From positions 1 to 38,070 of the IMG/VR virus record IMGVR_UViG_3300008217_000017: 38,070 bases of DNA, one strand, 5' to 3'. Position numbers and translations under genes: made by a program. The notes beneath the pieces are model-generated. The model searched no databases. It was not told where the DNA came from and saw only the letters and a list, made by a program, of their open reading frames with translations. Positions 2,434 to 27,420 of the stretch are shown piece after piece. Source of the stretch: a virus. The number at the start of each line of letters is the position of its first letter. The first letter of the stretch is position 1.

Positions 2434-3401
2434 GTAATGTTGGGTTTGGCCTTCAAGGTCATGTCACTCTTTTCGAGGAGAGTAGGGAAACCGGCCTCAT
2501 TACGCGTGTTGCCGGTACTCAGAGTGTTCCTATTGACCCGGGTCTTATTACCGGACCAAAGGTTTTCGAGTGGTATAAAAGCGTTAAATCATGGTTGGCC
2601 GGTAAGAATACGATTACTTCAGGCGGCTTGGCTGCATTGATAGATGTTATTGATGGTTCTAAGGACGAGCATTTAGATACTGCCGGAGCTCAACTGGAGG
2701 TAATTCAAGGGAATAATGGGAATAATATAAAAACGCTTACAGGTCAGGTGGCAGGATTTCCTACTGATCCAACTGATTCAAATAACCCTCGTAAGCAATT
2801 TGATACGAAACACGGCGATATCAGCGTAGATACGTATGGATATGCTTCGGGTAATACATATCTAGGTGTTCGCTTAAAGCTTTCAGATGGTACTACGATA
2901 GCTGAATACAACGATACGAATAATGCGTGGGGAGCTAAGACTAATCAGTATAATTGGTATTGGCAGTGGACGATCTCGATGGCTCCGACCGGAACCGATG
3001 CTTCTCGCTGGAAGGATGAGGGCATCGACAATATGCTTGCTTGTATCGCCGAAACTGGTGGATCAAGTGGTCTTGGCAGTAAGCATTGGAATCAGTCGAA
3101 TATGAAAGCTATCGTTTTTGATGCGAATGATGCCTTCGTTAAGCATCCAGGAGCTACAGGTATAACGAATACTGATACAACGCTTCAGTGGGTATTCGCG
3201 GATACTTCGGGAGGTGGTACTTGGACTAGGGTGGAAGTCAATAACCATGCCCAAAATGAACATAGTGGATCTGGTGATGGCGGTAACAGTTTCGATTTAG
3301 ACAAGACTTTGTATGACGATAATGGTGCTGGCTTAGGTAGAACTCAGATATCTGGTGATACCTTCACCTATACGTTCACAATTACGTTCGCGGCTACATA
3401 A
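2430..3401 (+). CDS. Hypothetical structural protein, probably fibre or decoration related
   Basis: A 323-residue protein that overlaps the preceding gene by four bases (ATGA) and the portal gene by one base. The sequence is rich in G, T, N and D with alternating hydrophobics, as expected of a beta-structured virion protein. It ends in a TYTFTITFAAT strand-like segment. There is no signal peptide, membrane segment or catalytic motif. A DTNNAWGAKTNQYNWYWQW stretch near the middle is unusually aromatic. Its position between a repeat-rich fibre-like gene and the portal suggests a structural protein; the exact role is unknown. Confidence 0.7.
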   Translation: MSNVGFGLQGHVTLFEESRETGLITRVAGTQSVPIDPGLITGPKVFEWYKSVKSWLAGKNTITSGGLAALIDVIDGSKDEHLDTAGAQLEVIQGNNGNNIKTLTGQVAGFPTDPTDSNNPRKQFDTKHGDISVDTYGYASGNTYLGVRLKLSDGTTIAEYNDTNNAWGAKTNQYNWYWQWTISMAPTGTDASRWKDEGIDNMLACIAETGGSSGLGSKHWNQSNMKAIVFDANDAFVKHPGATGITNTDTTLQWVFADTSGGGTWTRVEVNNHAQNEHSGSGDGGNSFDLDKTLYDDNGAGLGRTQISGDTFTYTFTITFAAT

Positions 3402-9404: not shown

Positions 9405-10070
9405 GTGGCTACATATTCGGATCTAGTTCATGACGTAAGGGCTTTAGCTCCAGAGCTCTCGCGTAGTGTAGCGTCTGACAAGCAGATCGCCAGACTCGTT
9501 TGGCGTAGTTTGCAGCGTATGGTTCGTCGTGCCACCGAGTTATCGCCCGATGACAATAGGCTTGCTAGAACGAGTTCTGCTTTGACTGTTCCGGCAGATC
9601 TTACGGCTGGCATGACACTTCCTACGATGATTAAGCCATTGTCGTTTGAGGTTCGTTATTCAACTGGTCATCGTCTTCCATTAACGCTGGTAGCGGCGTT
9701 TATGAGATGGGATGAGATCAGGCCACTTCCTGCGGCGTTTATTCAGAACGACAAGCTCTATCCTCTGCCTGGAAGCGGTGGTCGAGCTGAATGGACCGAT
9801 GCGAATATTGAAAAATCTGATTGGAAAGATGCTAGTACGGTACAAATCGAGTACATACCTGACGTAACTGAACCAACAGCTATGACTAACTCGATTACTG
9901 TAAATGATCTTTTCCACGATGTAGCTGTCCATGATGCTGCGAGTTCGCTTGTTCGGGAGCCAGGTCGCACACCATTCCTGACAGCACTTCGCCAAGAAAA
10001 GGAAATGGAGGTACTGGGTAGCCTTAGGCGTGAGCCAGCTGGCATGAATCGCGTTAGAGAGGTCTGGTAA
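9405..10070 (+). CDS. Head-to-tail adaptor-like protein
   Basis: A 221-residue protein from GTG 9405 with an AGGGGG ribosome site. The N-terminal region is helical (residues 1-45), with W-R-S-L-Q-R-M-V-R-R reminiscent of helical adaptor domains. A beta-rich middle (residues 50-155) follows, then a helical C-terminus (FHDVAVHDAASSLVREPG). This matches the general shape of podovirus neck/adaptor proteins (gp4-like of P22 or gp11-like of T7), and it sits just before another such protein and a nozzle-like protein. Family assignment is by architecture and gene order, not by a specific motif. Confidence 0.55.
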   Translation: MATYSDLVHDVRALAPELSRSVASDKQIARLVWRSLQRMVRRATELSPDDNRLARTSSALTVPADLTAGMTLPTMIKPLSFEVRYSTGHRLPLTLVAAFMRWDEIRPLPAAFIQNDKLYPLPGSGGRAEWTDANIEKSDWKDASTVQIEYIPDVTEPTAMTNSITVNDLFHDVAVHDAASSLVREPGRTPFLTALRQEKEMEVLGSLRREPAGMNRVREVW

Positions 10071-10669
10071 TGCCTACTGTCCAGAATGTAATTGATGGTG
10101 GTGTTGCTTATTCAACGCTAAATGATACGACGCTCGCGGTCGATTCAGAGCTTATTGGGGTTGTAGACCGTGCTCAGAAGGAGTTAATGGCCCGTCATTC
10201 GTCTAGATTTATAACGAAGACAACTGTTTCAGCTCCTGGTGCTGGTACTGCTTGGACTGCTCCTGCGACATCGAAGATTCATCGTATAGAGAAAGCTGAT
10301 GGAACTAAGGTTCATGTTGTCGATGTAGACGATCAGGAGGCCGCGTTCGATCCGAGAGTTTATCGTCTGACCGATGAAGTATATACCGTTGATAATAATC
10401 CGAATCCGGCTTCTGACGCTTTGGTTTTTATACACTCTACCGTGCCGACTACGTTGTCAGCGACAGGAAACAATCTTCATGGTTTCTGGCCTGAGTGGTG
10501 GACTCGAATCCTTGAGCTGGAGGTCGCGTTATTTCTGGCAGTTAAGGATGGGCGTGCCTCTGAAGCACAGTTGATTCAAGTGGAACTCAATTCTAAAAAG
10601 GCTGAGTTCGATATGGATATGGCTGAAGATCAGACAACCGAAGAACATCGCTATACGGAACCTGGCTAA
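10070..10669 (+). CDS. Second neck/tail adaptor-like protein
   Basis: A 199-residue protein in a one-base TAATG overlap with both neighbours. It has a helical start, a beta-rich middle (residues 45-130), the PEWWTRILELEVALFLAVKDGRASEAQ helix, and an acidic C-terminal helix ending near HRYTEPG. The layout resembles that of the preceding gene, which suggests that both belong to the connector that joins portal and tail nozzle. No specific motif was recognised, so the role is inferred from context. Confidence 0.5.
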   Translation: MPTVQNVIDGGVAYSTLNDTTLAVDSELIGVVDRAQKELMARHSSRFITKTTVSAPGAGTAWTAPATSKIHRIEKADGTKVHVVDVDDQEAAFDPRVYRLTDEVYTVDNNPNPASDALVFIHSTVPTTLSATGNNLHGFWPEWWTRILELEVALFLAVKDGRASEAQLIQVELNSKKAEFDMDMAEDQTTEEHRYTEPG

Positions 10670-12384
10670 TGGCTACCAATACCTTTCCAGAACTCCGTAT
10701 CGAAGGTTTTACTGGTGTTGATTATACATCGGACGATTATCGGCTTCCGCTTGAAGCTGTAACTGCCATAGAAGGACTGCGTGTTGATACAAATGGCAAT
10801 GTTATTGGCTTTGGCGCGTTAGGATCTGGGAAGGCCTTAGGTAGTGGTGGGACCAAGGCGATGGGGGGATCGTGGTTTAAGGCGACTAACCAGATCGTTC
10901 TTGGTACTTATACCGTTGGTTATAACAATAATACGATTGGACAGTTTCATTTACACGTTGCTCCTGTCATTGGTTTTGATGGCACGAGTGATTTTACCGT
11001 AATAAATACTACGGGAATCAATTTTACTCAGGGTCATGAGCTTTTAACGCTTGCTGAGTCGTATGAAAAGATGTTCATCCAGGTATATAAGGAACCACTT
11101 TTATATTGGGATGGGGCGAATACTGGTGGGGCCTACCTCACAGAGCTCTCAACGGCTGATACCGATTTAGATGATTCCGGAGATTCAGATGATACGCTGA
11201 AATTCGCTGGGATAGCTACACATGATGGGCATCTGATGGGTTGGGGGTATGGAGATGAATCGACCGGCCACGATGCTGAAGAAACGAAATATTTGGGTGC
11301 AGATCGGCCGGAAATGCTTAGGTGGAGCCATTTAGGTCAGCCGCTCAAGTGGCGACCAGAGAACTGGCTGATGGTAGGGACCAGGGGGTTGCCGATTCTT
11401 GCTGGTGTTTCTGCGTTTGGACGCTTTGTGGTGCTGAAAGAAGAGGGTGTATGGCTCGTTTACGGTTCGCTCGAGGAGAACCTTCCTATAGCTGAACCGC
11501 TTTATGTAGAAAAAGGGCGAGCGGCTGGTGCTACTGGTTCCCGTGCCTTTGCCGTTTACGACAATGCGCTGTATTGGATGTCGCGATATGGGCCAATGCG
11601 TTGGGCTGGCGGTAATTTTGCGGAATATATTGGTTATCCAGTTGAGGGGGATTTAGTAGAACAATGGCGTAATTCCTCTTGTATGGTTGTCCCTTGTCCT
11701 GAGATGAATGGCGTGCTCTTTATGTGCCATAATTCACCGGAACTTCCATTTATAGGTTGGGGTGACGCTAAGTATTCGGAGGGTTCTCCTCATCAGTTTG
11801 CTTGGCTTTGGGATACAAATCGCGGAGTATGGGCTGGAAAGGCTGATTTGGGTACTTCGATTGTTCAGTCTGCGTTCGTGGCACCGACTGAAAAAGGGAA
11901 GATGCGCGTTCTCTTTGATAAAGCTAAAGAATTGGGTCCGATAACCGCATCTAGTTCTTCTAGTGATACTATGGGTGCAGAAACGGGAACATTTACTACA
12001 TCCAAAGTTAGGTTGAATGAAAATCGTGGGGCTGTTGTTCGTGGTCTTGTGATCGAAGGTGATTTCCAGCCGGATGATAGTGCTACGGCTACGTGGGATA
12101 TTACGATTAACGGTAGCACTGTTAAGCAGTTCTATATTGGAAATAGTGCACCAAGCGCATCAGAAGCTGGTGATATCTGGTATGATGCGGATGGTTCATT
12201 GAGTTATGAAGCGACTGCGGCAGGAAATAACTGGAGAATACAGTCTGGGTTAAGGCCGAAAACGATTCGTTTACCTCTAACTCAGTATCTTCGTGAAATT
12301 CAAATCAAAATGCAGTTAAACGCGCTATCAAATGATCCTAATCTGACCAAGATTCGTAGAATTGCGGTTCAATTTCGGAGTTAA
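10669..12384 (+). CDS. Tail nozzle / tail hub-like protein
   Basis: A 571-residue protein after two adaptor-like genes. It opens with FPELRIEGFTGVDYTSDDYRLP and contains repeated blade-like beta segments, including FGRFVVLKEEGVWLVYGSLEEN, AFAVYDNALYWMSRYGPMRWAGG and GVLFMCHNSPELPFIGWGDA. Such segments are typical of the propeller of podovirus nozzle proteins (P22 gp10, T7 gp12 type), which form the narrow tail tube below the adaptor. The last 150 residues look like an added beta domain with T/S-rich loops. The gene order portal–coat–adaptors–nozzle–ejection proteins strengthens the call. No enzyme motif is visible. Confidence 0.6.
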   Translation: MATNTFPELRIEGFTGVDYTSDDYRLPLEAVTAIEGLRVDTNGNVIGFGALGSGKALGSGGTKAMGGSWFKATNQIVLGTYTVGYNNNTIGQFHLHVAPVIGFDGTSDFTVINTTGINFTQGHELLTLAESYEKMFIQVYKEPLLYWDGANTGGAYLTELSTADTDLDDSGDSDDTLKFAGIATHDGHLMGWGYGDESTGHDAEETKYLGADRPEMLRWSHLGQPLKWRPENWLMVGTRGLPILAGVSAFGRFVVLKEEGVWLVYGSLEENLPIAEPLYVEKGRAAGATGSRAFAVYDNALYWMSRYGPMRWAGGNFAEYIGYPVEGDLVEQWRNSSCMVVPCPEMNGVLFMCHNSPELPFIGWGDAKYSEGSPHQFAWLWDTNRGVWAGKADLGTSIVQSAFVAPTEKGKMRVLFDKAKELGPITASSSSSDTMGAETGTFTTSKVRLNENRGAVVRGLVIEGDFQPDDSATATWDITINGSTVKQFYIGNSAPSASEAGDIWYDADGSLSYEATAAGNNWRIQSGLRPKTIRLPLTQYLREIQIKMQLNALSNDPNLTKIRRIAVQFRS

Positions 12385-12386
12385 CA

Positions 12387-13025
12387 ATGCCTGGATACAA
12401 CCCAAACTTTTATACTGATCCTGGAGAAAAACGGGAAAACCGTAGGTCCAGCGGTCCTAGTGATACTAGTACTAGACCGCCTAGAGGACCGGCAAACACT
12501 ACGTATGTTGGCTCTATTGGTATGCAGAACCGGTTTGTCCCTAACCCAGATCAACAATGGCCGGCACAGTCTACAAATCCGTATGGATCAAGTGATCCGA
12601 CGATGAATTGGTTCAACAGGGCGCAGGATATGACATCCGGTGCTATGACCTCTTTCGCTAATCAACTTACTCCACAGTTGAATAATGCTTTAGAGGCTGC
12701 CAGATCACGGTTTGGTGGAGGTGCTATCCGCTCTGGTGGTGCACAAGAGCGTGAGGAAGATGCTTTCAATCGTATGTTTGGCCGGCCAATGCTGGATTAT
12801 ATGTCAATGATGGCTGGACAGAATCGTGATTGGTCTGGAATGATGCAGAATCGCTTTATGGAAGAACGCGGTGTTCAGGATCGCTTTGATAAGGATCTGG
12901 CATTTAGGCGGGAATCACAGCCGAGTGGTTGGGGCAGTCTACTTGGTTCTTTGGGTGGTTCGTTTCTTGGGCCGGTTGGTACGGCTCTTGGTGGTAAACT
13001 TGGCGAAAAACTCTTCAACGTTTGA
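12387..13025 (+). CDS. Candidate internal virion (ejection) protein with C-terminal glycine-rich hydrophobic tail
   Basis: A 212-residue protein. The N-terminal 75 residues are polar and disordered-looking (P, N, S, R). The middle has M- and Q-rich helices. Residues about 182-208 form a Gly-rich hydrophobic segment (GSLLGSLGGSFLGPVGTALGG) of the glycine-zipper kind found in podovirus ejection proteins that insert into the envelope. The position right after the nozzle gene is the usual place for the first ejected protein (P22 gp7 or T7 gp14 analogues). Function is inferred from these two features. Confidence 0.55.
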   Translation: MPGYNPNFYTDPGEKRENRRSSGPSDTSTRPPRGPANTTYVGSIGMQNRFVPNPDQQWPAQSTNPYGSSDPTMNWFNRAQDMTSGAMTSFANQLTPQLNNALEAARSRFGGGAIRSGGAQEREEDAFNRMFGRPMLDYMSMMAGQNRDWSGMMQNRFMEERGVQDRFDKDLAFRRESQPSGWGSLLGSLGGSFLGPVGTALGGKLGEKLFNV

Positions 13026-13028
13026 TAA

Positions 13029-13493
13029 ATGGCTTACGATAATTATTCGATGTCACCTGAATTCGGGGTCCGTGATACCGGAATCCCTGGACAGCTTGGG
13101 GGTTCGCGTATCCTCGAGTTGCGTGATTGGTGGCGTGAATTAAGTCGTGATCCGCTTGAGTCGATAAGACTGCCTATGGCCGGCGTACCTGATGATCGCG
13201 GTAGTTCTGGTCGCGTGTCCTCAAGGGGTATGTCAGTAGCCGAAGCTTTGCGTCGCATGACAAAGCGCGGTCATTCGGAGAATCAGGAGGTTCCGTCTCC
13301 CACTGCTGATTCTACCCAGCTCCTTTCTGGTTCACAGCGCAAGAACTTGGCTATGACTAAAATGAGAAAGGAGATCAGAAAGAACATCCATCCTGGGCTC
13401 ATAGCTCTTCATTTGGATGATGGCAGAACAACGCGTGGCGCAGTACCGGAACAGGAAGTCAAAGGCTATCACGATCAGTACTGGAGACGATAA
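13029..13493 (+). CDS. Hypothetical protein in the ejection-protein block
   Basis: A 154-residue basic protein three bases after the previous stop, overlapping the next start by one base. It has many Arg, Ser and Gly residues and two helical stretches (VAEALRRMTKRG and NLAMTKMRKEIRKNIHPG). It has no membrane segment or known motif. Its placement between candidate ejection proteins suggests an internal virion protein or a chaperone for one; this is not shown by the sequence. Confidence 0.55.
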   Translation: MAYDNYSMSPEFGVRDTGIPGQLGGSRILELRDWWRELSRDPLESIRLPMAGVPDDRGSSGRVSSRGMSVAEALRRMTKRGHSENQEVPSPTADSTQLLSGSQRKNLAMTKMRKEIRKNIHPGLIALHLDDGRTTRGAVPEQEVKGYHDQYWRR

Positions 13494-15097
13494 TGGGTGC
13501 GTTCATGAGAAGTTTCGCCGAATCCTTTGGACCTTCTTATCGTGCATCCGGTCAGGACTTTCAGGCTAATCGTAGGTATCAGGAGGAAAGAAAGCTCAGA
13601 GAAGAAGAGCTCCAGCGTGCGCGGATATTAGATGACCAGGAACGTCAGCTAAGGGATCAGCAATTAGGTACTGTTCGTGGTGTTACTGAAGGTTATCTGC
13701 CGCCTCTTGAGCTAGATCGCCCATCGCTATTTGGAGGTGCTTCTTTGGGTATGGCCGGTCAAGCTGGTCAGGCTGGTCAGGCTATTCCTCATGTTATGGA
13801 TGCTGTTAATCAGTTAGGGGGATTGGGTATTCAGAACTTTGATACTCAACGTTCATTGTCTCCACAGCACCACGAACAATCTAGTGGTATGTACCAGGAG
13901 CCAGCGGTTCATACCACGAGAGGTCCATCGCCAAGTCCGTTAGCCGTCCCAGATGTAGGATTGGGGCTACGTGAATGGGCGGCACAGTCGGGTATTCAAC
14001 CAAGACAAGCTCAGGTCGGTGGTACTCCTTATGCCTATCACGATCCCCAGCTGAAGGATCAGTTCGATAGATCTCAACCTGGGTGGGAAGATCCTAATGC
14101 AGAGAAGGAAGAGTTTGGACGGTTACAGGATGCGTTTGCTCTTCACTATGGTCAGTCAGAAGAGAACCCCGAAGGTGTTCCACAAGCACTCATATATTTG
14201 AGTGATAGTCAGGAAGATCTTTCCCAATTAGCACAAGATTTTATTCCGGGTATGCAAGCACCTGATTTTGAGGAAGAAGCACCAGAAGAGGAAGATATTG
14301 ATTGGCCCACATACCGAGCAATTTATGAACAGGTACGTGCGAAATATACAGAGCCGGATATGTCTCTAACTTTACCGATTTATGATGATCCAGCTTATCA
14401 GGGGGGTGTAGCTGGTGACATTTTAGGTTACGAACATGATCCAGAAGCACCACGGATATTGATAGAAGGTAAGTCTGAGGCCGATATCGTGCGTGAGACA
14501 ATGGCGATTCTTAGGCAAATTAAAGAAAACCCTATGGGTCTTCAGGAATTGGGATCTCTAGGTTCTGAGCCTGAGCCCGGATCGACAGATGAAGCCCCGG
14601 ATCGACAGAATTTATTTCCGAATACTTGGGATTATGATTCGGAACTATATGGAACTGGTGCCTTACTTCAAAGGCCTGTTAGCGGAGGTGATGTTAGTCC
14701 GACTTCAACCCCAACTGAACCGTCAATTGATTCTGTTTCATCTCAAATGGATAGTGAACAGGTTCGTTTATGGACTGAAACGATTCGGGGAGCTGCTATA
14801 CCTGAAGAGGATAAGGCTATTTTCATGGATGCCGCATCTAATCCAGATATGACAAAAGATAATTTAGGTTCTCTTTATGATGATTTAATAAAAGATTCTG
14901 TTACGGGTTCTTCGTCTTCTGGTGCAGGATCTAGGCCATCAGCTCCGGAGGGTGTTCAAACATCGACATCTTCTCCAGGAGATACGACCACAGCAGTAGA
15001 GCGAGAGATTGATGCCCGGGAGAGGGCCAGTGAATTACAAGATGAATGGGAACGATTACATCTTAGTGATTCTCTTGGTGCAGGATATCAAGGGTAG
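13493..15097 (+). CDS. Candidate internal virion protein
   Basis: A 534-residue protein overlapping the previous gene by one base. Residues 20-65 form a strongly charged coiled-coil-like helix (RRYQEERKLREEELQRARILDD area). This is followed by a GQAGQAGQA stretch near residue 88 and a long acidic, Pro/Ser-rich central part. Helices near residues 420-465 and 510-534 follow. There is no lytic transglycosylase or peptidase motif. The position between a glycine-zipper protein and the giant protein fits an ejection protein. A 20-base DNA repeat occurs within it at 14577-14610. Confidence 0.5.
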   Translation: MGAFMRSFAESFGPSYRASGQDFQANRRYQEERKLREEELQRARILDDQERQLRDQQLGTVRGVTEGYLPPLELDRPSLFGGASLGMAGQAGQAGQAIPHVMDAVNQLGGLGIQNFDTQRSLSPQHHEQSSGMYQEPAVHTTRGPSPSPLAVPDVGLGLREWAAQSGIQPRQAQVGGTPYAYHDPQLKDQFDRSQPGWEDPNAEKEEFGRLQDAFALHYGQSEENPEGVPQALIYLSDSQEDLSQLAQDFIPGMQAPDFEEEAPEEEDIDWPTYRAIYEQVRAKYTEPDMSLTLPIYDDPAYQGGVAGDILGYEHDPEAPRILIEGKSEADIVRETMAILRQIKENPMGLQELGSLGSEPEPGSTDEAPDRQNLFPNTWDYDSELYGTGALLQRPVSGGDVSPTSTPTEPSIDSVSSQMDSEQVRLWTETIRGAAIPEEDKAIFMDAASNPDMTKDNLGSLYDDLIKDSVTGSSSSGAGSRPSAPEGVQTSTSSPGDTTTAVEREIDARERASELQDEWERLHLSDSLGAGYQG

Positions 15098-15099
15098 CG

Positions 15100-18000
15100 A
15101 TGTCTCCCATTCAGGAGCGTCCCCAGGAAACTGATTGGCTTGCACATTATCGCGAGCGTTTGGATGAAATCAGAAACCGTAGGGAAGATGTAGAATCCCG
15201 AGAGACACCAGATCCCTCTCCCACACAAGATTGGCTTTCCTACTATAAAGGTCAGCTGGATTCAACTCGTTCTGCGAGACAGCTGCAATCGGCAGCAGAG
15301 GCCGCTCCGAAGGGGTATCAGTCTGTTATTCCGAGTTCATATACAGAGGATCCCCGTGTTCAGCTTGGCGATCCTGATAAATACACCGGAAGTAGAGCGA
15401 AGACTCAACTGCCTTGGGGTCAGGAGATCGCTCGGGCTTTTGGAAGAGCAGCTAGAACTACATGGCCTAGTGCAATCGGTGGTTTTATGCAGACCATCGG
15501 TACTTCCGGCGCGGCCCGTAGAGATGAATCTGCTGCAAGATATAGGGCTATGGCGGCTAGTGAGCTTGAGAAAGATCCAGATAAAGATATTTCTTTCTAT
15601 GAGCAGATGGCCCAGCAAGCCGAGCAACCAGGATTTGGTAATGAATGGTTGTATGAAACTGGTGGAAAGTTTGCAGAGAAAGGGTTCTTTCCTGGTGGTG
15701 GAGAAGAGTTTGCAGAGAAATATCCTCCATCTGAGTATTTCCCTCCAGGTGTTATAGAGCAAGTAACGGGTAGACCCTTCCCATCTGGTAAAGAAATTGT
15801 TTCAGGATTGCCAGAAGGTCTTTCGAGTGCTGCTCCCTCTTTTGCTCAAGCTCTTTTATATAGAAAACTTGATCCTAAGCTAGTTAAGAAAATCCCGAAG
15901 CTGGCTAGGTTTTTGGGATATGCAACTCCTACCTTAACTCTTGAGGCGGGTCATGCTTATCGAGGTGCAATCCAACGTCATTTAGATGGAGGTATGGGTT
16001 TATCTGACGCACAGGGTATGGCCGCCAGAGAAGCACTTATGACCGGTACTATTAATAGTGGTATCGAGTTCATGGGTTTTATGCGGTTTGTTGAGAGGGT
16101 TGCTCCACAATTTGAAAAGACAATACGAAATACGATTGGGCGACATCTTACGAATGTTCTTACTGGTGCAGCCACGGAAGCAACAGAAGAAGTGCTCCAG
16201 GAACTCGTCAGTTCTTATGTCGGATCAGAAATCGGTAATAATCTACAAGCTTGGGATGATATTGAGAGCCGTTTATATCTAGGTGGAGCTATTGGTGGAA
16301 TTATCGGTGGAGGTATGGGTTTAGCAACACCAACTACTACCGATACTGGAGATCCACTCGCCCCATTAGGAGGGGCAGAACGTACAACAACACCATTACC
16401 TCCTACTGTTATTCCGGGTGCTGAAGATGAAACTGTAGAATCTGCTCCTGAAGAAGAGGTCCTTCCGGAAGGAACGGTAATACCTGCTCCTGAAGAAGAT
16501 ACTCGCTCACCAGCGCGAAGAAGGGCAGACATTCGACTTGAACGAAGGGATAGAGAGGCTAGGAAAGAGGCTAGGGAAAAGGCCGAGCGTGAATCTGAAG
16601 CTCCTGACATCGACTTGGTTCATATTGGCGAAGAAGGTGTTACAACCACGCCTCTTGAGGCCGACCTGGAAGAAGAAACGCTTACACCATCCGAGGAAGT
16701 ACCAACGTTCACTACAGAAACTCTGCAACCTGAGGTTCATCCTTCAAGATTGCCGAGATTACGGGCACAGGTTGAGGAAGCAGAGGAAGAGTTAGAGGAA
16801 GCAAAAGCCTTATTGGAGGCACATCCGAAAGAAGATGTTGTGGGTGCGGCAGAGGGGTCTGCTAAAGAAACAGAGGGTGTTCTAAAGGATTTAGTAGAGG
16901 AATATGAAAAAACGCTTGAAGAAAGAACCTCTACTCTGAGAACTGCTGAAGCAAAGGCTGTGGGGCTTGCTGAGAGCGAAGCACGGGAGCGAGCAGATGT
17001 GACAGAGGTCGCAGAGGTTGCTCCGGAAGTTGAGGAGCCAACGATTTCTGAGAGAGCTTCACAATTTGCAGAACAATGGAAATCGGAGCTCGGTGTAGGT
17101 GTTGTTCCAGGAGAGTTTATTGATGAACCGCCACTTCAGGAATTTGTAGAGAAGGTTGGTGTTAAAAACGTACCCCTTCCTTCTGATATTAAAGAGACAA
17201 TTACGACACGGATTGAACAGGCCGATAAATACACTGACATCGCAGTCATAGAACATCAGTTTGAAAGATATAGAGAAGCTTTTGGTGACGAACTTGCGGA
17301 TGCGTATGCTGCTGAAATCGACCTAGAAGGTTCTCTCAAAAAGATCTCTGATTCTGTTGAGGGGCCTGTTGAGAAGCCCGTTGAGAAGCCTCCTACGAAG
17401 CTTGAAGGTGATGCGGCTGCTGTAGCTGACAGATTATGGGGACCGACCGAGGAGGAAGAGACAACAGATGTCTTTCCGGAACTAACCACTGTTCCTGAGG
17501 ACGTTTTTATGAAAGATCGCATAGAGGGGCCGTCTTTTCTTGAAGATCTCAGAGCAGATAAGGGGACTGCGGATCCCGTTGTTAGGGTAGAAGAAAGAGA
17601 ACGTACTACGAGAGTCTTAGCACAATCTTCGTATCCAGCAGGAGGGTCTGCTACGCCAGAAGGTTCTGTTACAGCTGATGTTTCAGCAACAGAACTCAGG
17701 GGAAAATGGCGATTTGAAATTGATAGTTATGGAACCAAGTCACCGCATCCAGTTGGATATACATGGGATGTGGAAGTTGTTCTTACAAATGACGACTTCC
17801 ATCTCGATGTTAGTGATTTAACTGATGAAATTGATGCTTTGGCCCTCGAATATTTACCGTATCTAGAAACGGGTAGGTGGGTAACTGTAAGTGATCGTTG
17901 GGGCCCAGCTCCTGATAAGAAAGATGAGTATAGGATAGATATTGATTATCGCTGGAAAGAGCCCAAAAGGGGATCGTATGATCTGAAGAATCAGTATTTA

Positions 18001-21000
18001 TGGGATACGGTGCCATCGGAAGAAAAGATTAAGCGTGATAGATATGGTAGAACAATCGTTGGGCATCCTAGTGAACTGAAACATGTAGTAGGTGATGAGG
18101 TCACTTTTACTAAAGATCCTGATCGGTTAACTGAATATTCTGGGCTTCTTGGTCCTAGTGAAGAGCCGGCCCCAAAGATTACTGGTGAGGTTGAGAGTGG
18201 TTGGATTGAAGAAGATGGGCACGATGTACAGAAATTTTATAATGTTGTTGAAAAAACCGAGGATAATCCTGAAGGAACTCTACATGTAGCTAGAGAAGAA
18301 CAGATTTATACTCCACCGTCGGAGACTGAAGTTGAAGATGTTGAAGCTGAAGTTATTGAAACTGAACTGTTGGAGGCTCCTGATGATGTGGGAACAGATT
18401 TGGAAGAAGGACTTACAGAAGAGGTACCCGGAGAAGTATCGGGAGCTGAAGAAGAGCGGGACGTTGGAGAGCCAAGCCCAGAAGGAGGGGAACCGAGCCC
18501 AAGAGGCGAGCGACAGTATAGCCCAGCAGATATTACAGAAGAACCCGTTGCCGAAGACGACCGATTACTTGGAGAAGGTACGGCAGTTGAACCAACTGAA
18601 GAACCGGGCCGACGAGATAGCCTTACAACACGTGCTGCTACCGGCTCAGATTTCCACATCCTCGACGAGTACGGAATTGGAGAAGGAGGCGATTTAGTAA
18701 GAGCAAGACAAAACATCGCTGCAATCGAATTGTTATTTGAGCTTGAGGCCGAAGATCGGTTGCCCAATCCGGAGGAGCAGTTGGTTTTAGCGAAGTATAG
18801 TGGTTGGGGTTCTACCGAATTATCTAAAGTTTTTAATACATGGAGGATTTCACGGGGCGGATTAGAGGAGGTCAGACTTCGGTTAATAGAACTTTTTGCT
18901 GATGACGAAGATACTTTTAATAGAATGCGAAGAGGTGTTCAGTATCAGCACTTTACTTCGATCCCTGTTATTAAGGCGATATATACTGCTATTGATCGTT
19001 TGGGGATTAAGGGTGGCAATTTCTTAGAACCAGCTGGTGGGATTGGCACTTTTTTAGGGTTAACTCCTGATGGTATGAACGCTAAGTGGACAGCAATAGA
19101 AATTGATGGGTTGCTTGCTCGTATGCTCAGTAAGCTTTATCCGAAACAATCTATTGTTCATTCTGGACTTCAGGACGCAGCTGGTGTTCCCCAGGACCGC
19201 TATGATCTGGTTATTTCAAATGTGCCATTTGCAAACATCAAGGTTCATGATGAAACCTGGAGGGGTTCTGAGAAGAAAGCTCTTAAAGCTCGGTTGCATG
19301 ACTATTTCTTTGCAAAGTCTTTAGAGAAGCTTCGCCCGGGTGGGGTCGTTGCTTTTATTACTTCAACCGGCACGATGGATAAGAAAAACTCCACCGTCAG
19401 AGAGTATTTAAGACGACAGGCTTATTTCTTAGGTGCTGTACGTCTGCCACAAAATACGTTTCAAGAGGTAGCTGGTACTGCGGTTTCGACGGATATCATT
19501 TTCTTGCAGAAAAGAGAAAAGCCTCTTCAGCTTGGTTGGGACAGAGGATTGAGTAAGAGTGAGGCCGCACAAGTCGAGGGATCACCAATTCAATATGAGG
19601 GCTTTGCCCAGCCTATTACGGAAGGTTCATTCGGAACTCAATGGATGAATACCATCGAGAGAGAGTATGAAGGAGTTACTTCTAGGATAAATGAGTATTT
19701 CATCGCTAATCCTGATGTGGTTATTGGGTGGCCGTTCCAGCTTTTGTCTGGGCGTTTTGGGAAGACAATGGGAACCGTGCTCGAGGATATGGATGAATTA
19801 CCTCTTGAGCTCCAAAAGGCTCTAAGCACACTTCCTAAAGATATTTTTAAGCCGGCCGAGGGCATTAATACCGATGCGGTAGTTACGGTTTCTAAGAAAG
19901 ACGAGTACAAAATCGGCTCATTACGAGTAGAGGGTAAAGATAGACGTTCTAGTCGTATTGTAATGATGACCGAGGCCGGTCCGGTAGATTTTACGGTTCC
20001 CAAGAATTCTCTTTGGCGTGTAATAGATCTGATCGAGTTACGTGATATCGTTCGGAATTTACTTAATCTTCAGTTAACTGAAGCAACGACAGAAGAAAAA
20101 GAAGAGGCGAGGAGAGACCTTAATGATGCGTATGGTTCTTTTGTTGGACACTATGGACGGATTAACAAGGCTATTCGTAATAAACCTAGAATAAAAAAGG
20201 ATGCAGAAGGCGTAGAACGGGAAGTTATCACTTACAGATATCCTAATCTCAGATATTTCAGTAAAGATCCAGAATCTCCCTTAGTTACTGCCCTTGAGGA
20301 TTATGATCTCAAGACAGGATTAGCTGAGAAGACCGCGATATTTGATAGAGATATAATCACTAAACCCGAGATACTAGAGTCTACTTCTGACCCACAAGAA
20401 GCTCTTCTTGCTACTCTGGGCGAGGTCGGGATTCTCGATCTGGATTTAGTTGCAAAGAAGCTTGACGTTACGGCTGATGTTGTTCCTGGAATGTTGGGTG
20501 AAAGTACCTACTTCAATCCTGCTCTTGGTCGCTGGGAAATAGCTGAACGTTATTTGTCAGGTAATGTTCGTATAAAACTTAAACAGGCTCGTGCCGCAGT
20601 TGTATCTGATCCAGAACTAAAACGTAATATTGAGGCATTGAAGAAGGTTATTCCGACTGAGTTAACGATTGATGAAATAGCTGCTAACCCAGGATCAGCT
20701 TGGATACCAGCAGCTGTTTATAGGACATTTTTCAAGGAGATCGTAGGTCTTAATGCAATTATTGAGTATAACGAGCTGAGTTACACTTGGTTCGTTCGTC
20801 CTAAAAGGAATGGTGATATACATACTTATGAAGCTGTGGATGATTGGGGTACTTCGGATATTCACGCATTTCAGCTTTTTAAGAGAATTCTTAATAACGG
20901 TAAGATTGAAGTTAGAAGATCTATTCCAAATAGTACGAGAACGACACCTGATCTTCCGGCAACTGAAGCGGCCTTAGCTAAGGCTGATGATATCAGAGCA

Positions 21001-24000
21001 GCATTCAAAGAGTTTGTTCAGGTAAAAGAAGGAAAGATTAAACTCGACAGGACTCGATCTGTAGATCTGGTAAAGCTTTATAACGATCAGTTTAATGCAC
21101 ATGCGTTACCCGATTATGACGGTTCGTATTTGTCTTTCCCTGGGATGAATTCAACAATCACCCTTCGGCCGCATCAAACCTCATTTGTATCTCGATTTAT
21201 TCAAGAAGGTAATACACTAGCAGCTCATGTTGTTGGGTCTGGCAAAACCTATTCGATGGTTGCAGCAGCGATGGAAGCGAAGAGGCTTGGTTTAGTTTCT
21301 AAGCCGATGGTTACTGTACCAGATCACATGGTTGCTCAGTTCATTTCAGAAGCCCAAAAATTGTATCCGAATGGTCGTTTTCTAATGGCTAGAACAGAAG
21401 ATATCGGCAATCTAGATAAATTTGCTTCTAGCGTTGCGTTGGGTGATTGGGATCTGATTGTATTGTCTCATACAAGTTTTACGAGAATTCCGGTCAGTTC
21501 TAAAACACAGACTATTTATATAGAAGAGGAATTACAGAGATGGAGATCCTATTTATCTAGACCAGGACTTGATCGGGCATCTCGCAAGAGTATAGAGGCT
21601 CAGATAGAGGCGTATGAAGAGAAGCTCTCTGAGGCTCTTGAGGCCGGTAAGGATAAGATTAAGGCTGTCACGTTTGAAGATTTGGGCGTTGATCTGGTCC
21701 TGGTTGATGAAGCGGATTTGTTTAAGAATCTGCAATTTCCAACACACTTGGGTAGGCTTGGAGTAACACCTGGTAAATACGTTAAGAAGTCTGGTGATCT
21801 TCACATGAAGTTGAGCTATTTGAGGGGTATTAATCCTACTCATAATGCCATTTTTGCAACTGGAACCCCGATTTCTAATTCTTTGCATGAAATATGGACT
21901 GTGATTCGTTATCTCAAACCTGAAGTCTTGGTTCAGAAGAATGTTCAGTATTTCGATAGATTTGCCAGCACCTTTGCTCAGATAACGATAAGAGCTGAAA
22001 AGACAACTGCCGGCGATTATCAGCGCAAAGAACGATTAGCGCAATTTTCCAATGTACCTGAACTCGTAAGAATGTTCAGACAGATAGCCGATATTCAGTT
22101 GGATGAGGATGTCGATTTACCTGTTCCAGATATGCTCGGTGGTGAACCAGAAGTCATTTATCTGCCAGCAAGTGATTACATCTTAGCGGGTATGAAAACG
22201 ATTCTTAGGAGGTCTGAGGTAATTAAAAGCGGTCAGGTTGACCCAAAGGATGATAATCATCTTAAACTGTCTACAGACGCTCGTAAGCTGTCACTCGATG
22301 AGCGACTTTGGGCAACCAAGGATCAGTCCGAGGAAGAAGGAGAGATTTCTGAAAGAGATCGGATAGATGTATCAGAGATTCCTGATAATCCTGATTCTAA
22401 AGCAAATAGAGCTGTTGATAAGATATTTGAAATATGGAAGAGCAATGAAAAATATAAGGGCACTCAGCTGGTCTTCATTGATTTCTCTAAACCACGCCAT
22501 GACAGGTTTAGTGTGCCGGTCGATATGAAGAATAAGTTGGTCAAGCTTGGTGTTCCTGAAAGTGAAATTGCATTTATCAATACGCCGGAATACAAGAAGC
22601 CAGAGGCCAAGTTACGATTATTCGATCAGATGAATAATGGAGATGTCAGAATCCTGTTTGGTTCTACTTTAACTATGGGTGTTGGTACGAATGTTCAGAA
22701 ATTAGGTGTTGCAATGCACTTAATAGATGCTCCTTGGCGACCGCGTGATATGGAGCAGCGCATAGGCCGGTTTATAAGACAAGGTAATTGGCTCTGGGAT
22801 AATAATCTGATCTCAGGGATTCGTGTTATTTATTACGCAGTTGAGCGATCATTTGATGAATTCATGTTTGAAACACTTCGGCGTAAGGCTGCATTTATTC
22901 ATCAGGTGATGAGAGGTGATCCGAACATTCGTGAAATGAAGGATCTTGGTAAAAGTACGATGTTACATGCAGAGATTTCAGCTATTGCGTCAGGTGATCC
23001 ACTTATTCTAGAGCGTGCAACGCTAGAAGCAGATATAGCTAGGTTGGAAGCACGTAAAAGGTCGCATCAGAACAGACAGGGTAAAGCCAGAGGATTCCTT
23101 CGTTACAATGAGGCAAATCTCAGAACAGACCAGAAGCGTTTACCTCTATTTGAGGCTGACGCAGAACTTATAGAAGATGTTAGTGGTGATAAGTTCAAGA
23201 TTACTATAAGAGGCGAGGAAATTGAGGGGCCCGGGGCTCGTGCTAAAGCAGCTGAAGCACTAATGAAGATTTTCCCCACAGAAGGATTTTCTGATCCGGA
23301 CGCATTTATTGTGGTCGGAACATTTGCTGGCATGGAGCTGAGATTGGTAGGTCGGGTTTTTTCACCTCATCCTTATTTTCTACTTACAGGCAACGAGAAA
23401 CACTCAACAGAAGCATCATTAATAGCTAGTCCCGAAGGTCTTATACAGAGATTGGGTAATCTTGCTGCCAAGGTGAGAAATAAATCTGTGCAGTTGCAGA
23501 AGGATATTATCGAGAATAAGGAAAACCAGTTAAAGGCAGAACAGAAGATTCTTGATGCTCCTTTTTCGGCAATTGAAGAACTTGAGAAGAATAAGGCCCG
23601 CCTCGAGGCGATCATTAATCAACAGCTTGGTCAACCTCCAGGACAGATTGAAACTCCAACTGAAATTATGGTTTCAGCTGCTGAGCCGGAGGGTGGCTTA
23701 GATGAGGTTATTAAAACCTTTGACCTCTGGCATTCAGGTGAAGTTCAGGATGTTGAAGAACTTGTTGATCCAGGAGGTCTTGTTGGATTGACTCTTATGA
23801 CGACTAGGGAATTGGAGGAAGGTTCGGAGTATGAGTTCAAGATATCGGAGGGCCTTGCTCCTGGGGAAGTAACAGTGGAGGATCGCGAAGACTTCTTGAT
23901 GCTTTCTTATGATGGCGGCGAAACAGGTTGGCTTCATCCAAATATAGAGAAGTTCCAGGCAAAGACTGTTCCTGGTGAAGAGATAACAGATGTTTTTCCA

Positions 24001-27000
24001 GAATTAACCGATGTGTACGAAGGCTATTATCAGAGAGCTTCAGAAGATATGAAAACTGGTATAGTCCCGATTCCGGTACGTAAGGATCCGGATAATATCG
24101 GATATATGACAACTAAACTGTATACATTTGGTCTTGATGCCATTTTTGCAGGTATCAAGTCTGCGCTTAGTTCTAAGGAATCGAAAGCTGGACTTGCTAT
24201 TGATTCAAATGGAGTTGTTAGAACTTCTCGTAAAGCAGATAGATTGCTTAAAAAGGTTGTTTCTACAGAAGAGAGAGCTGAAAGACTTTTCCAAGAGAAT
24301 AAAGGACTATTGCCTCCTTCTATCCGAGAACGAGTTTCGGAATGGTTGACTACTAGAAAGCACATGTTTACGCGCCATTTCTTGTATCTCGATCCAGAGG
24401 TTTCGGTCGAGGCCGCTGTGGCCGATAAGTTCAGGATATACGAGGCATCGCCTCAGTGGGCGAGTCTACAGGCAATTTCGGCAATACTTAAAACAACAGG
24501 TGATTTAGAGAGTGACGCTGAGTTGGATTTGTTTACGCGTTTATTGATTTTGCCGGATATTCTAAAAGATATCGAAGCGGGTCTTTATGATTCAAAGCCA
24601 GTTCCGTTTTATGGAAAAGATCCAGAAGGTAATCCTAGAACTACTAGTGAGTCTGAAGAAGCTATTAGGCGTGATGCTAGTCATTTCGAGAGATCTCTTA
24701 ATGATCCTAAGAAAGTTCCAGCCGCAGCTGCGGAGCGTATAAGAACGGCGTTGAAGCTTCGTACCCAGATGAACCAGGATATGAAGGAATTATTGGTTGC
24801 AATTGGGTTGCTCGATGACAGAGTTTTGGAGGATGATCGGTATTATCATCGTCAAGTTATGGACAAAGGGCTCGATTCGAAGTTGAAGAAGAAGAGATTC
24901 CTGACTGGTGTTGGTGGTGATGTCAGATTGAAGACCAAGGGTTTCCAGATGCAGCGTATCGGGGGATCTGAATTCAATACTGATTATGTACAGTCAGAAT
25001 TTGAATGGTTGTCAGATGCTTTTGGGCTGATTGCCAGAAAGCGGGTACTTGATGATACAGAGTTGCTTGCAAGTAAGACACATGAAGTAAGAGGCATGGC
25101 AAAGCAGCATAATATTAAGGCAATGGAGGCCGACTTTAACGCTAAACATCCTGATATGGGATACCCTTATTATGGAGAAGCTGAGTATATGCTGCTTCCA
25201 TTTAAGCGTACCCTGCGTTGGACGAACGATGAGTTGCAGAAGTTGGCGTATGAAGGCCAACTACCAATGGGAGAGTTCCAGGGCGTTGTAGAAGAACTCG
25301 CGCAACGTCACAGCATGTCACTTTATGAGAAAGAAGGACTTGGTGGATTTAGTACAGCTCAATATTGGTGGTATTTGAGATGGCTTGCATCAGATAAGGG
25401 TACTTCACGAGAAGGCAGGGGTGGCATACTTGCACGTGTTATTCTCCGTGCACTTGCTGATAAGGATGCGTTTATAAAGCATTGGGCCGGAGATAATTAC
25501 GTAGATATAAGTAGTCCCCAGCAATTGTTGAAGTTTGCGAGATCCATTAATCCCGAGTTTGAGGATTATGAATTATGGCAACCAGAAAAGGGTCACCATT
25601 TCTTTAATGCGATGACCACCAGTGAGCAGATTCTAAATGAAATAGCAGCTGGAGAAAGAGAGTTTAGTTCAGATCAGTTCCAAAGGAATTTGGTTGTTGG
25701 TTCTCAGAAAGAAACTTGGTTAGTACCCGCAGGAGTTGCAGCACATCTTGAGCAGTTTAGGGGAGAGGCCCGTCACGAATTTGATATTGATATCATTTTC
25801 GCTACAGGGACATGGAAAGAATGGACTTTGTTAATGCCCTTGAAGGCTATTCGTTACAATATCAATAACTTGTCGGGAGATCTTGATATCTCTTTAGCTT
25901 ATGATGCTAGGATTACCAAGTATGTCATGGGAGCAATCAAAGAACTTCGTAAAAAGGGCGATCCCGAAGCTTTAGCTGAAGCACAGAGACTAGGTGTTAT
26001 TGGATCCGGATTTGCTATTCAGGAAGTAGAGGGTGTTTCGTCTAGGGGTCTTTTTAATGCGATGTTTGAGGGCGGTCAGGAAATTGTTGAAGCAAAAGGA
26101 AAGCATGGTATTTTCAAGAGATATTGGAAATCGGTTATCGAGTTTACTGCCTTTAGGGAGAACATTCTTAGGTTAGCTACATATAGATATTTCCAGGCCG
26201 AGCTCGCTAAGGGCAAGGATATGTATGGTGCTTCCAGGCCGTCTGAAGTTAGTGCAGTAAAAGATCCCGATGAAAGAGCTGCAAAGTTAGCACGTGAATT
26301 GATTGGTGATTACGGAAATATCAGTTATGCCGGCCAGTTTATCCGAAGGCGAATGATACCATTTTATTCTTGGATCGAGATCAATTCTCCTCGGTATTAC
26401 CGATTGCTCAAGAATTTGAAGCACGAAGGACGTAGTGGGGGCATAACTGTTCCTGGTTATCTCACTCGTAGAGCAGCAGCACTCGGAGTTGGGTTGGCAT
26501 TACGATCTCACCTTCTTTTCATTTTTGTTACTCTTTGGAACAAGATCTATTGGCCCGAAGAAGAAGAAGAGATGGCAAAGCAGTTCCCCGGGCAAAAGCA
26601 TATCATTCTTGGGAGGAATCCTGATACCGGTCTAATCATGAGTTTGCGTTTCGAGGGTGCTCTTGCTGATGCGTTAGAGTGGTTGGATCTGGCTGATTAT
26701 CCCCAAGATATTGAAGATTTTTATAATGGCGATAAATCGGTTCGGATTATTGGTGAGGATGCCATAAAGGCAACTACCAATCGTCTTGTGAATAGTCTTG
26801 TTCCGTGGGCAAAGACAGGGGCCGAATTGGCGGCTGGTGTTTCTTTCTTTCCCTATGTTCTAGATCCAGATCCAGGATTGGAGTTTTCTCCTCGGCCTCT
26901 TAGGGATCGCTGGGAACATTTATCACGTTTGTTCTCAATGCAGACTGCATATAAGGCTATAACGGGTAAGCCGATAAGGACTGAGGGTTGGGGTCATCTT

Positions 27001-27420
27001 ATGAACTTGATTGTTTATGAGACAGACCCGGATGAAGCCGCATTTTACAATGTTAGAAATCGTATTGATGAGTATTTCGATCAACTCGATCAGGCAACAA
27101 AAAGAACTAATTCTTTGTGGAATTGGCGTAAATCAAATGCTTGGGAAGGTTCTGATTCTGAGAAAACAGCCAAATTCCTTCAGGATTATTACGATTATGG
27201 TGGTACTGATCGCGGGTTATCTCAGGCTGTTGCTAGGCAAAATCCCTTTTGGGGAATAGATGAAAATGAAAGAAGAGATTTTATGGAAACCCAAAGTCCT
27301 GAACAAGCGACTGAGATTGATCGTGCAGTAGAATGGTATGAAGGTCTTTACGAAGATGTTCTACCAAGGACTCGTAGAAGAAGGGCAGCAAGACCACGTA
27401 GGCAGAGGCAATCACGATGA
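15100..27420 (+). CDS. Giant (4106 aa) polyvalent virion protein: N6-methylase fold + SNF2-type helicase + large C-terminal polyvalent region
   Basis: Layout in order. Residues 1-60 carry two DWLxxYxxxLD copies (D12, D44). A glycine zipper lies at 394-407, then an acidic linker with coiled coils to about 800. A methylase domain has motif I EPAGGIG at 1310-1316 and motif IV NVPF at 1374-1377. An SNF2-like helicase has Walker A GSGKT 2046-2050, DEAD 2203-2206, TGTP 2254-2257, and motif VI QRIGR at 2553-2557 with R2560. Coiled coils follow (about 2637-2680). The long C-terminal part includes YGNISYAGQF at 3738-3747, a hydrophobic segment near 3792-3813, and an Arg-rich tail. Methylase-helicase fusions of this kind are known from P1 DarB and from the polyvalent proteins described in phages and conjugative elements, where they act as injected protection factors. 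The slot after the nozzle and smaller ejection proteins is where podoviruses encode their largest ejected protein. Packaging and anti-restriction function are inferred. Confidence 0.82.
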   Translation: MSPIQERPQETDWLAHYRERLDEIRNRREDVESRETPDPSPTQDWLSYYKGQLDSTRSARQLQSAAEAAPKGYQSVIPSSYTEDPRVQLGDPDKYTGSRAKTQLPWGQEIARAFGRAARTTWPSAIGGFMQTIGTSGAARRDESAARYRAMAASELEKDPDKDISFYEQMAQQAEQPGFGNEWLYETGGKFAEKGFFPGGGEEFAEKYPPSEYFPPGVIEQVTGRPFPSGKEIVSGLPEGLSSAAPSFAQALLYRKLDPKLVKKIPKLARFLGYATPTLTLEAGHAYRGAIQRHLDGGMGLSDAQGMAAREALMTGTINSGIEFMGFMRFVERVAPQFEKTIRNTIGRHLTNVLTGAATEATEEVLQELVSSYVGSEIGNNLQAWDDIESRLYLGGAIGGIIGGGMGLATPTTTDTGDPLAPLGGAERTTTPLPPTVIPGAEDETVESAPEEEVLPEGTVIPAPEEDTRSPARRRADIRLERRDREARKEAREKAERESEAPDIDLVHIGEEGVTTTPLEADLEEETLTPSEEVPTFTTETLQPEVHPSRLPRLRAQVEEAEEELEEAKALLEAHPKEDVVGAAEGSAKETEGVLKDLVEEYEKTLEERTSTLRTAEAKAVGLAESEARERADVTEVAEVAPEVEEPTISERASQFAEQWKSELGVGVVPGEFIDEPPLQEFVEKVGVKNVPLPSDIKETITTRIEQADKYTDIAVIEHQFERYREAFGDELADAYAAEIDLEGSLKKISDSVEGPVEKPVEKPPTKLEGDAAAVADRLWGPTEEEETTDVFPELTTVPEDVFMKDRIEGPSFLEDLRADKGTADPVVRVEERERTTRVLAQSSYPAGGSATPEGSVTADVSATELRGKWRFEIDSYGTKSPHPVGYTWDVEVVLTNDDFHLDVSDLTDEIDALALEYLPYLETGRWVTVSDRWGPAPDKKDEYRIDIDYRWKEPKRGSYDLKNQYLWDTVPSEEKIKRDRYGRTIVGHPSELKHVVGDEVTFTKDPDRLTEYSGLLGPSEEPAPKITGEVESGWIEEDGHDVQKFYNVVEKTEDNPEGTLHVAREEQIYTPPSETEVEDVEAEVIETELLEAPDDVGTDLEEGLTEEVPGEVSGAEEERDVGEPSPEGGEPSPRGERQYSPADITEEPVAEDDRLLGEGTAVEPTEEPGRRDSLTTRAATGSDFHILDEYGIGEGGDLVRARQNIAAIELLFELEAEDRLPNPEEQLVLAKYSGWGSTELSKVFNTWRISRGGLEEVRLRLIELFADDEDTFNRMRRGVQYQHFTSIPVIKAIYTAIDRLGIKGGNFLEPAGGIGTFLGLTPDGMNAKWTAIEIDGLLARMLSKLYPKQSIVHSGLQDAAGVPQDRYDLVISNVPFANIKVHDETWRGSEKKALKARLHDYFFAKSLEKLRPGGVVAFITSTGTMDKKNSTVREYLRRQAYFLGAVRLPQNTFQEVAGTAVSTDIIFLQKREKPLQLGWDRGLSKSEAAQVEGSPIQYEGFAQPITEGSFGTQWMNTIEREYEGVTSRINEYFIANPDVVIGWPFQLLSGRFGKTMGTVLEDMDELPLELQKALSTLPKDIFKPAEGINTDAVVTVSKKDEYKIGSLRVEGKDRRSSRIVMMTEAGPVDFTVPKNSLWRVIDLIELRDIVRNLLNLQLTEATTEEKEEARRDLNDAYGSFVGHYGRINKAIRNKPRIKKDAEGVEREVITYRYPNLRYFSKDPESPLVTALEDYDLKTGLAEKTAIFDRDIITKPEILESTSDPQEALLATLGEVGILDLDLVAKKLDVTADVVPGMLGESTYFNPALGRWEIAERYLSGNVRIKLKQARAAVVSDPELKRNIEALKKVIPTELTIDEIAANPGSAWIPAAVYRTFFKEIVGLNAIIEYNELSYTWFVRPKRNGDIHTYEAVDDWGTSDIHAFQLFKRILNNGKIEVRRSIPNSTRTTPDLPATEAALAKADDIRAAFKEFVQVKEGKIKLDRTRSVDLVKLYNDQFNAHALPDYDGSYLSFPGMNSTITLRPHQTSFVSRFIQEGNTLAAHVVGSGKTYSMVAAAMEAKRLGLVSKPMVTVPDHMVAQFISEAQKLYPNGRFLMARTEDIGNLDKFASSVALGDWDLIVLSHTSFTRIPVSSKTQTIYIEEELQRWRSYLSRPGLDRASRKSIEAQIEAYEEKLSEALEAGKDKIKAVTFEDLGVDLVLVDEADLFKNLQFPTHLGRLGVTPGKYVKKSGDLHMKLSYLRGINPTHNAIFATGTPISNSLHEIWTVIRYLKPEVLVQKNVQYFDRFASTFAQITIRAEKTTAGDYQRKERLAQFSNVPELVRMFRQIADIQLDEDVDLPVPDMLGGEPEVIYLPASDYILAGMKTILRRSEVIKSGQVDPKDDNHLKLSTDARKLSLDERLWATKDQSEEEGEISERDRIDVSEIPDNPDSKANRAVDKIFEIWKSNEKYKGTQLVFIDFSKPRHDRFSVPVDMKNKLVKLGVPESEIAFINTPEYKKPEAKLRLFDQMNNGDVRILFGSTLTMGVGTNVQKLGVAMHLIDAPWRPRDMEQRIGRFIRQGNWLWDNNLISGIRVIYYAVERSFDEFMFETLRRKAAFIHQVMRGDPNIREMKDLGKSTMLHAEISAIASGDPLILERATLEADIARLEARKRSHQNRQGKARGFLRYNEANLRTDQKRLPLFEADAELIEDVSGDKFKITIRGEEIEGPGARAKAAEALMKIFPTEGFSDPDAFIVVGTFAGMELRLVGRVFSPHPYFLLTGNEKHSTEASLIASPEGLIQRLGNLAAKVRNKSVQLQKDIIENKENQLKAEQKILDAPFSAIEELEKNKARLEAIINQQLGQPPGQIETPTEIMVSAAEPEGGLDEVIKTFDLWHSGEVQDVEELVDPGGLVGLTLMTTRELEEGSEYEFKISEGLAPGEVTVEDREDFLMLSYDGGETGWLHPNIEKFQAKTVPGEEITDVFPELTDVYEGYYQRASEDMKTGIVPIPVRKDPDNIGYMTTKLYTFGLDAIFAGIKSALSSKESKAGLAIDSNGVVRTSRKADRLLKKVVSTEERAERLFQENKGLLPPSIRERVSEWLTTRKHMFTRHFLYLDPEVSVEAAVADKFRIYEASPQWASLQAISAILKTTGDLESDAELDLFTRLLILPDILKDIEAGLYDSKPVPFYGKDPEGNPRTTSESEEAIRRDASHFERSLNDPKKVPAAAAERIRTALKLRTQMNQDMKELLVAIGLLDDRVLEDDRYYHRQVMDKGLDSKLKKKRFLTGVGGDVRLKTKGFQMQRIGGSEFNTDYVQSEFEWLSDAFGLIARKRVLDDTELLASKTHEVRGMAKQHNIKAMEADFNAKHPDMGYPYYGEAEYMLLPFKRTLRWTNDELQKLAYEGQLPMGEFQGVVEELAQRHSMSLYEKEGLGGFSTAQYWWYLRWLASDKGTSREGRGGILARVILRALADKDAFIKHWAGDNYVDISSPQQLLKFARSINPEFEDYELWQPEKGHHFFNAMTTSEQILNEIAAGEREFSSDQFQRNLVVGSQKETWLVPAGVAAHLEQFRGEARHEFDIDIIFATGTWKEWTLLMPLKAIRYNINNLSGDLDISLAYDARITKYVMGAIKELRKKGDPEALAEAQRLGVIGSGFAIQEVEGVSSRGLFNAMFEGGQEIVEAKGKHGIFKRYWKSVIEFTAFRENILRLATYRYFQAELAKGKDMYGASRPSEVSAVKDPDERAAKLARELIGDYGNISYAGQFIRRRMIPFYSWIEINSPRYYRLLKNLKHEGRSGGITVPGYLTRRAAALGVGLALRSHLLFIFVTLWNKIYWPEEEEEMAKQFPGQKHIILGRNPDTGLIMSLRFEGALADALEWLDLADYPQDIEDFYNGDKSVRIIGEDAIKATTNRLVNSLVPWAKTGAELAAGVSFFPYVLDPDPGLEFSPRPLRDRWEHLSRLFSMQTAYKAITGKPIRTEGWGHLMNLIVYETDPDEAAFYNVRNRIDEYFDQLDQATKRTNSLWNWRKSNAWEGSDSEKTAKFLQDYYDYGGTDRGLSQAVARQNPFWGIDENERRDFMETQSPEQATEIDRAVEWYEGLYEDVLPRTRRRRAARPRRQRQSR

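Follow-up and report, generated by a model that had tools for sequence, protein, structure and literature searches.

A divergent DarB-like giant protein with a methylase and SNF2-type ATPase core, encoded in the virion gene block of a podovirus-type sequence

The virus record IMGVR_UViG_3300008217_000017 (positions 1 to 38,070, analysed over its whole length and called the window here) encodes a giant protein of 4106 amino acids, which by its sequence is a divergent member of the already described DarB-like family, with both ends divergent. We consider it likely that this giant is a polyvalent podovirus virion protein that is packaged, ejected and shields the entering DNA from restriction. In the literature, members of the DarB-like family are already viewed as injected methylase-helicases that protect the incoming DNA (Iyer et al. 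2017, PMC5512222), and passages of the citing papers PMC6630229 and PMC9144972 credit the same view to Gill et al. 2011. DarB and polyvalent proteins, named as precedents in an earlier note on this DNA, are borne out by the family match, and the idea of an injected protector had already been published.

The open reading frame of the giant is intact, starts with ATG, has the sequence AAGGG ahead of the start and abuts the stop codon of the upstream gene. Profile searches with methylase, SNF2 and LPD-type models, suggested as a check in the earlier note, gave PHROG 10089 ('DarB-like antirestriction') at 1323 bits for amino acids 1043–2841, and revealed a core (amino acids 1180–2717) that is built as an LPD36/N6-adenine methylase/SNF2 unit, in that order. 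The Pfam scan of the giant returned fragments only (Helicase_C, Eco57I, SNF2-rel_dom). Over 99% of its length, the core can be aligned end to end with the DarB-like giants of Bcep22-type podophages, at 33–37% identity. The methylase-helicase of 4106 residues with intact motifs described earlier is confirmed by the reading frame, the PHROG match, the motifs and the modelled methylase fold. The features are listed in Table 1.

Table 1. Features of the giant protein and of the genes upstream of it (positions in the window; aa, amino acids of the giant).
Feature	Positions	Strand	Basis
Portal protein	3401..5554	+	Profile matches
Major capsid protein	6664..7965	+	NCBIfam capsid_maj_Podo, 133 bits versus cut-off 80
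Head-tail adaptor-like protein	10070..10669	+	SU10_adaptor, 26.5 bits versus cut-off 27 (just below)
571-aa protein	10669..12384	+	Weakly related to phrog_511 internal virion protein group
212-aa protein, glycine-zipper/glycine-rich C-terminus, possible ejection protein	12387..13025	+	Sequence
534-aa protein directly upstream of giant	13493..15097	+	JC1 gp68 slot by position only, without sequence match
DarB-like giant protein, 4106 aa	15100..27420	+	ORF, PHROG, alignments
N-terminal motif copy 1, TDWLAHYRERLDEIRNRRE, aa 11–29	15130..15186	+	Self-repeat
N-terminal motif copy 2, QDWLSYYKGQLDSTRSARQ, aa 43–61	15226..15282	+	Self-repeat
Region aa 266–413, with glycine zipper aa 392–410	15895..16338	+	Weakly similar to VvAW1 gp01 N-terminal region, E 1e-4
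Acidic linker, aa 430–1179	16387..18636	+	Composition; net charge about −109
TDVFPELT copy 1, aa 789–796, ahead of enzyme core	17464..17487	+	Repeat search
LPD36-like helical domain, aa about 1189–1284	18664..18951	+	AlphaFold2 model, VIA-align, motif
N6-adenine methylase domain, aa about 1284–1580	18949..19839	+	Motifs, profile matches, model fold
Conserved middle domain, aa about 1585–2030	19852..21189	+	Well modelled
SNF2-type SF2 ATPase, aa about 2015–2680	21142..23139	+	Profile matches, intact motifs
TDVFPELT copy 2, aa 2963–2970, past enzyme core	23986..24009	+	Repeat search
C-terminal module, aa 3401–4106	25300..27417	+	Related only to L016 giant among relatives compared

The LPD36-like domain contains a GWGS motif of the GXGU type (aa 1235–1238), and the methylase contains motif I (EPAGGIGTF, aa 1310–1318) and motif IV (NVPF, aa 1374–1377). 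All SNF2 motifs are intact: VVGSGKT (2044–2050), VDEAD (2202–2206), ATGTPISN (2253–2260), GVGTNVQ (2527–2533) and QRIGRFIRQG (2553–2562). Structure prediction in pieces, also proposed earlier, worked well for aa 1175–2036 (AlphaFold2, alignment of 60 sequences, mean pLDDT 88.5); the structure model of the C-terminal module was unusable (pLDDT 34). The model of aa about 1189–1580 resembles the methylases HsdM (Type I), CamA, TaqI and LlaGI/LlaBIII (Type ISP), with VIA-align Z values of 16–20, and on this model the region aa 1284–1580 is an N6-adenine methylase fold. In several VIA-align rows the aligned range takes in the N-terminal helices of HsdM, which fits the proposal of Iyer et al. 2017 (PMC5512222), who defined LPD36, that this domain resembles HsdM-N. 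The middle domain (450 residues), between methylase and ATPase, is also confidently modelled and carries a conserved YLSGNV motif; matches over its length came only from other phage DarB-like proteins or models.

The methylase motif N-x-P-F and the ATPase motifs are conserved in the 90 family members that were compared. NVPF is present in 38 of them, the window giant counted, and NVPF or NIPF in 39; P1 DarB has the same NVPF within GNVPF. A methylase that is defective owing to NVPF is ruled out by these occurrences. A separate clade of the NVPF members was not recovered in a FastTree tree, in which the window giant groups with the giant of contig L016 (weak support, 0.23). The intact motifs suggest that the window giant is catalytically active. 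We found no source in the literature showing that methylase activity is required in any DarB-like member, which counts against an enzymatic shield. In an alternative reading, the giant is packaged and ejected and protects by passive binding or occlusion, with methylase and ATPase activity dispensable. This reading is favoured by two points: P1 Dar protects in cis only, from Type I restriction, and physical obstruction is the hypothesis quoted in the 2025 EcoSal Plus review. Since strict conservation of N-x-P-F and SNF2 motifs in 90 divergent relatives argues for selection on catalysis, we regard passive occlusion as rather unlikely.

The gene order in the window is portal, scaffold-like, major capsid, SU10-type adaptor, proteins of 571, 212, 154 and 534 aa, and the giant; an endolysin-like gene and RecE/RecT genes come after it. 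Judged from their sequences, the head genes around the giant are of the podovirus type. The giant is encoded among late virion genes, with portal, capsid and adaptor upstream on the same strand. It is the last gene of the virion block, the place where relatives have giants proven to be virion proteins, which upholds the earlier assignment to the slot of the ejected proteins. Of the nozzle-like and glycine-zipper ejection-like neighbours described in the earlier note, the first finds a weak link in the 571-aa protein (hhalign probability of 71% to a family matching phrog_511, internal virion protein); for the second, the glycine-rich C-terminus of the 212-aa protein stands, and no homologue of this protein was found. 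No terminase was recognised in the window (1–38070), perhaps because the record is a fragment or carries a divergent terminase. A 470-aa protein encoded before the portal gene (1021–2433) has N-terminal repeats of the WRVWD type and recurring ELRDV..A segments and is possibly a tail or fibre protein.

The position of the gene also bears on the view that the giant is synthesised after infection, works as an enzyme in the cytosol and goes unpackaged. Methylase-helicase fusions occur in conjugative elements too (PMC5512222), but here the gene closes the virion block, a place it shares with relatives whose product has been detected in virions, and we consider an unpackaged enzyme very unlikely. 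Gene position and an intact translocase module would likewise suit an ejection motor, in which the SNF2 ATPase would draw the genome into the cell, antirestriction being a secondary role. Gill 2011 reportedly suggested a role of the giant in facilitating DNA entry. Nothing was found in specific support of the DNA-pulling machine put forward earlier; we found no pulling data for any family member, and pulling alone leaves the fused, conserved methylase unexplained, so that a motor appears very unlikely.

A packaged and ejected protector is supported by the Bcep22-type giants (Bcep22 gp75, JC1 gp69, PEp14, BcepMigl, CSP3). They share with the window giant the full-length LPD36-methylase-SNF2 core, central in a protein of more than 4000 aa, and the position at the end of the virion block, with the lysis genes following. 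JC1 gp69 (4515 aa) was detected with 51 unique peptides in CsCl-purified virions, its score second to the capsid protein, and gp68, the product of the gene just ahead, was likewise found in virions (PMC9144972). In contrast to the window giant, the Bcep22-type giants have NPPF as motif IV, PEp14 and BcepMigl have an N-terminal transglycosylase, and C-terminal LPD38 (BcepMigl) or LPD37/39 modules are present. The best core match was gp01 of Vibrio phage VvAW1, which also shows the weak N-terminal similarity; VvAW1 (38.7 kb) has nearly the same record size and the same virion gene order (terminase, portal, scaffold, capsid, closure, ejection protein, giant). Pfam gave no match in the first 870 aa of gp01, as is the case for the N-terminus of the window giant, but gp01 differs by a C-terminal LPD38 and by motif IV NPPF. 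P1 DarB, an antirestriction protein packaged into the head, matches in the methylase and SNF2-type ATPase parts. It differs in being a myovirus protein of 2255 aa with the core at its N-terminus and with DarA, Hdf, DdrB and Ulx as partners. In BLASTP at E 0.1, none of 25 window genes examined matched DarA, Hdf, DdrA, DdrB or Ulx, which counts against the protector; the P1 Dar partners are reported to be missing from Bcep22-like phages too (PMC9144972). N4 virion RNA polymerase and T7 gp16 are also giant ejected proteins with an enzyme domain, an analogy of function only; they carry a polymerase or transglycosylase instead of a methylase-ATPase and no sequence relation was found.

A search with tblastn of aa 1180–2717 against phage records yielded 116 records, 54 of them covering at least 80% of the query and the best showing about 33% identity; many matches were already annotated as DarB-like antirestriction protein or DNA methylase. 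An alignment-based IMG/VR search with the core gave at least 565 confirmed relatives, 80 of which were kept. Single-protein patterns for the core, the C-terminus, the 571-aa protein and the portal revealed no close relatives of the window in IMG/VR. Among the fetched loci, 72 proteins are complete; their median length is 4514 aa, and 61 of them have at least 3500 aa, usually with a central core. Size and arrangement, which had been called unusual, are the family norm. Genes for homologues of known virion proteins commonly stand directly upstream of, or beside, the giant in relatives of the NPPF type. Among NVPF-type and similar contigs (seven sampled, with ten upstream proteins), an upstream match to phrog_511 (internal virion protein) or phrog_3287 (virion structural protein) was present in L021, L032, L044, L042 and L025, plus L081; L016 is the exception.

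Between the N-terminal region and the core, the acidic linker of about 750 aa is probably disordered, judging by its composition. The membrane-like segments mentioned earlier come down to two, the glycine zipper at aa 392–410 and a hydrophobic stretch at aa 3792–3810. As the earlier note had stated, the giant carries neither a transglycosylase nor an RNA polymerase domain in scans of Pfam, PHROGs and NCBIfam; a transglycosylase (SLT) match was absent even at E 1, and the same library detects SLT in PEp14 and BcepMigl. By hmmscan no LPD37, LPD38 or LPD39 was found in the window giant, while relatives were positive in the same scan. The C-terminal 700 or so residues match the L016 giant (IMGVR_UViG_3300034150_000083) alone, with 29% identity. 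Comparison of C-terminal profiles by hhalign gave at most 4% probability between the window and any other C-terminal group, among them the groups carrying LPD38 or LPD37/39. A hidden LPD38 in the C-terminus was rejected on this result; a second search was also empty, but its controls were silent. The L016 giant (4172 aa) shares the layout, the C-terminal module and a doubled N-terminal motif with the window giant, and differs in the sequence of the doubled motif and in the upstream proteins. Apart from the weak N-terminal VvAW1 match, the N- and C-terminal parts of the window giant are not homologous to those of relatives proven to be in virions. Packaging and translocation functions are expected in those ends, and the missing homology weighs against packaging and ejection.

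The octapeptide TDVFPELT occurs twice, once before and once after the enzyme core. The DNA of the copies differs synonymously, and an 8-residue repeat was found in 0 of 300 shuffled proteins. It was not seen in relatives of the window giant, and its interpretation as a family-wide processing signal was discarded, as flanking 6-mer repeats in relatives were at chance level (10 observed versus 10.2 expected).

On reading the N-termini of all giants we noticed, post hoc, a doubled motif. In the window giant, the self-repeat within the first 90 aa was equalled by 0/100 and 0/200 shuffles. Other giants carry, twice each, sequences that differ by phage, e.g., GAFDDLIP, SVW(E/D)EID or DQKPWESF; doubled motifs are also present in the giants of L010, L016, L017, L025, L043, L057, L062, L076, L077 and L085. 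An N-terminal self-repeat at p ≤ 0.005 was found in 12 of 49 non-redundant giants versus 7 of 167 other long ORFs of the same loci (Fisher 8e-5). The motif of a giant is generally absent from other proteins of the same loci, and a motif shared among the proteins of one phage was rejected on this ground. Where the copies have identical residues, the codon is identical as well in 61 of 118 cases, with 57 expected from codon usage alone. This argues that the copies are not recent DNA duplications and are kept at the protein level. The doubled motif in a significant minority of DarB-like giants looks new. The N-terminal 30 residues of P1 DarB are enough to carry a reporter into the head (PMC9024508), and by analogy to P1 the doubled motif is possibly a capsid-targeting or packaging tag; no doubling is apparent at the N-terminus of P1 DarB itself. 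More tentatively, it could be a lineage-specific, two-site capsid-docking tag, each phage matching its own head or scaffold.

Taking together the position in the virion block, the presence of JC1 gp69 in virions and P1 DarB as head protein, we infer packaging, ejection and protection in cis for the window giant. An intact DNA-modifying enzyme injected as entry protection, as the earlier note had suggested, is the best explanation in view of this position and the virion-proven relatives. The giant would be made late and packed into the head, possibly by means of its C-terminal module or of the doubled tag at the N-terminus. It would leave through the tail, either together with the DNA or ahead of it. 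Once in the cytoplasm, its SNF2 ATPase would move along the entering duplex. The adenine methylase fused to it would modify this DNA, or the bound complex would mask it, in cis. Type I-like restriction by the host would thereby be blocked during DNA entry.

With this member, the DarB-like antirestriction proteins delivered by virions come to include that of a small, deeply divergent podovirus; the family has only its enzyme core in common, and both ends are exchanged. The doubled N-terminal motif is a concrete candidate for the head loading of giants that lack the P1 loading proteins, and such a candidate is relevant to counter-defence and to phage-based protein delivery in laboratory strains. 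If true, the doubled motif would act as a general address label by which giant enzymes are directed into phage heads, in place of the DarA/Hdf route of P1.
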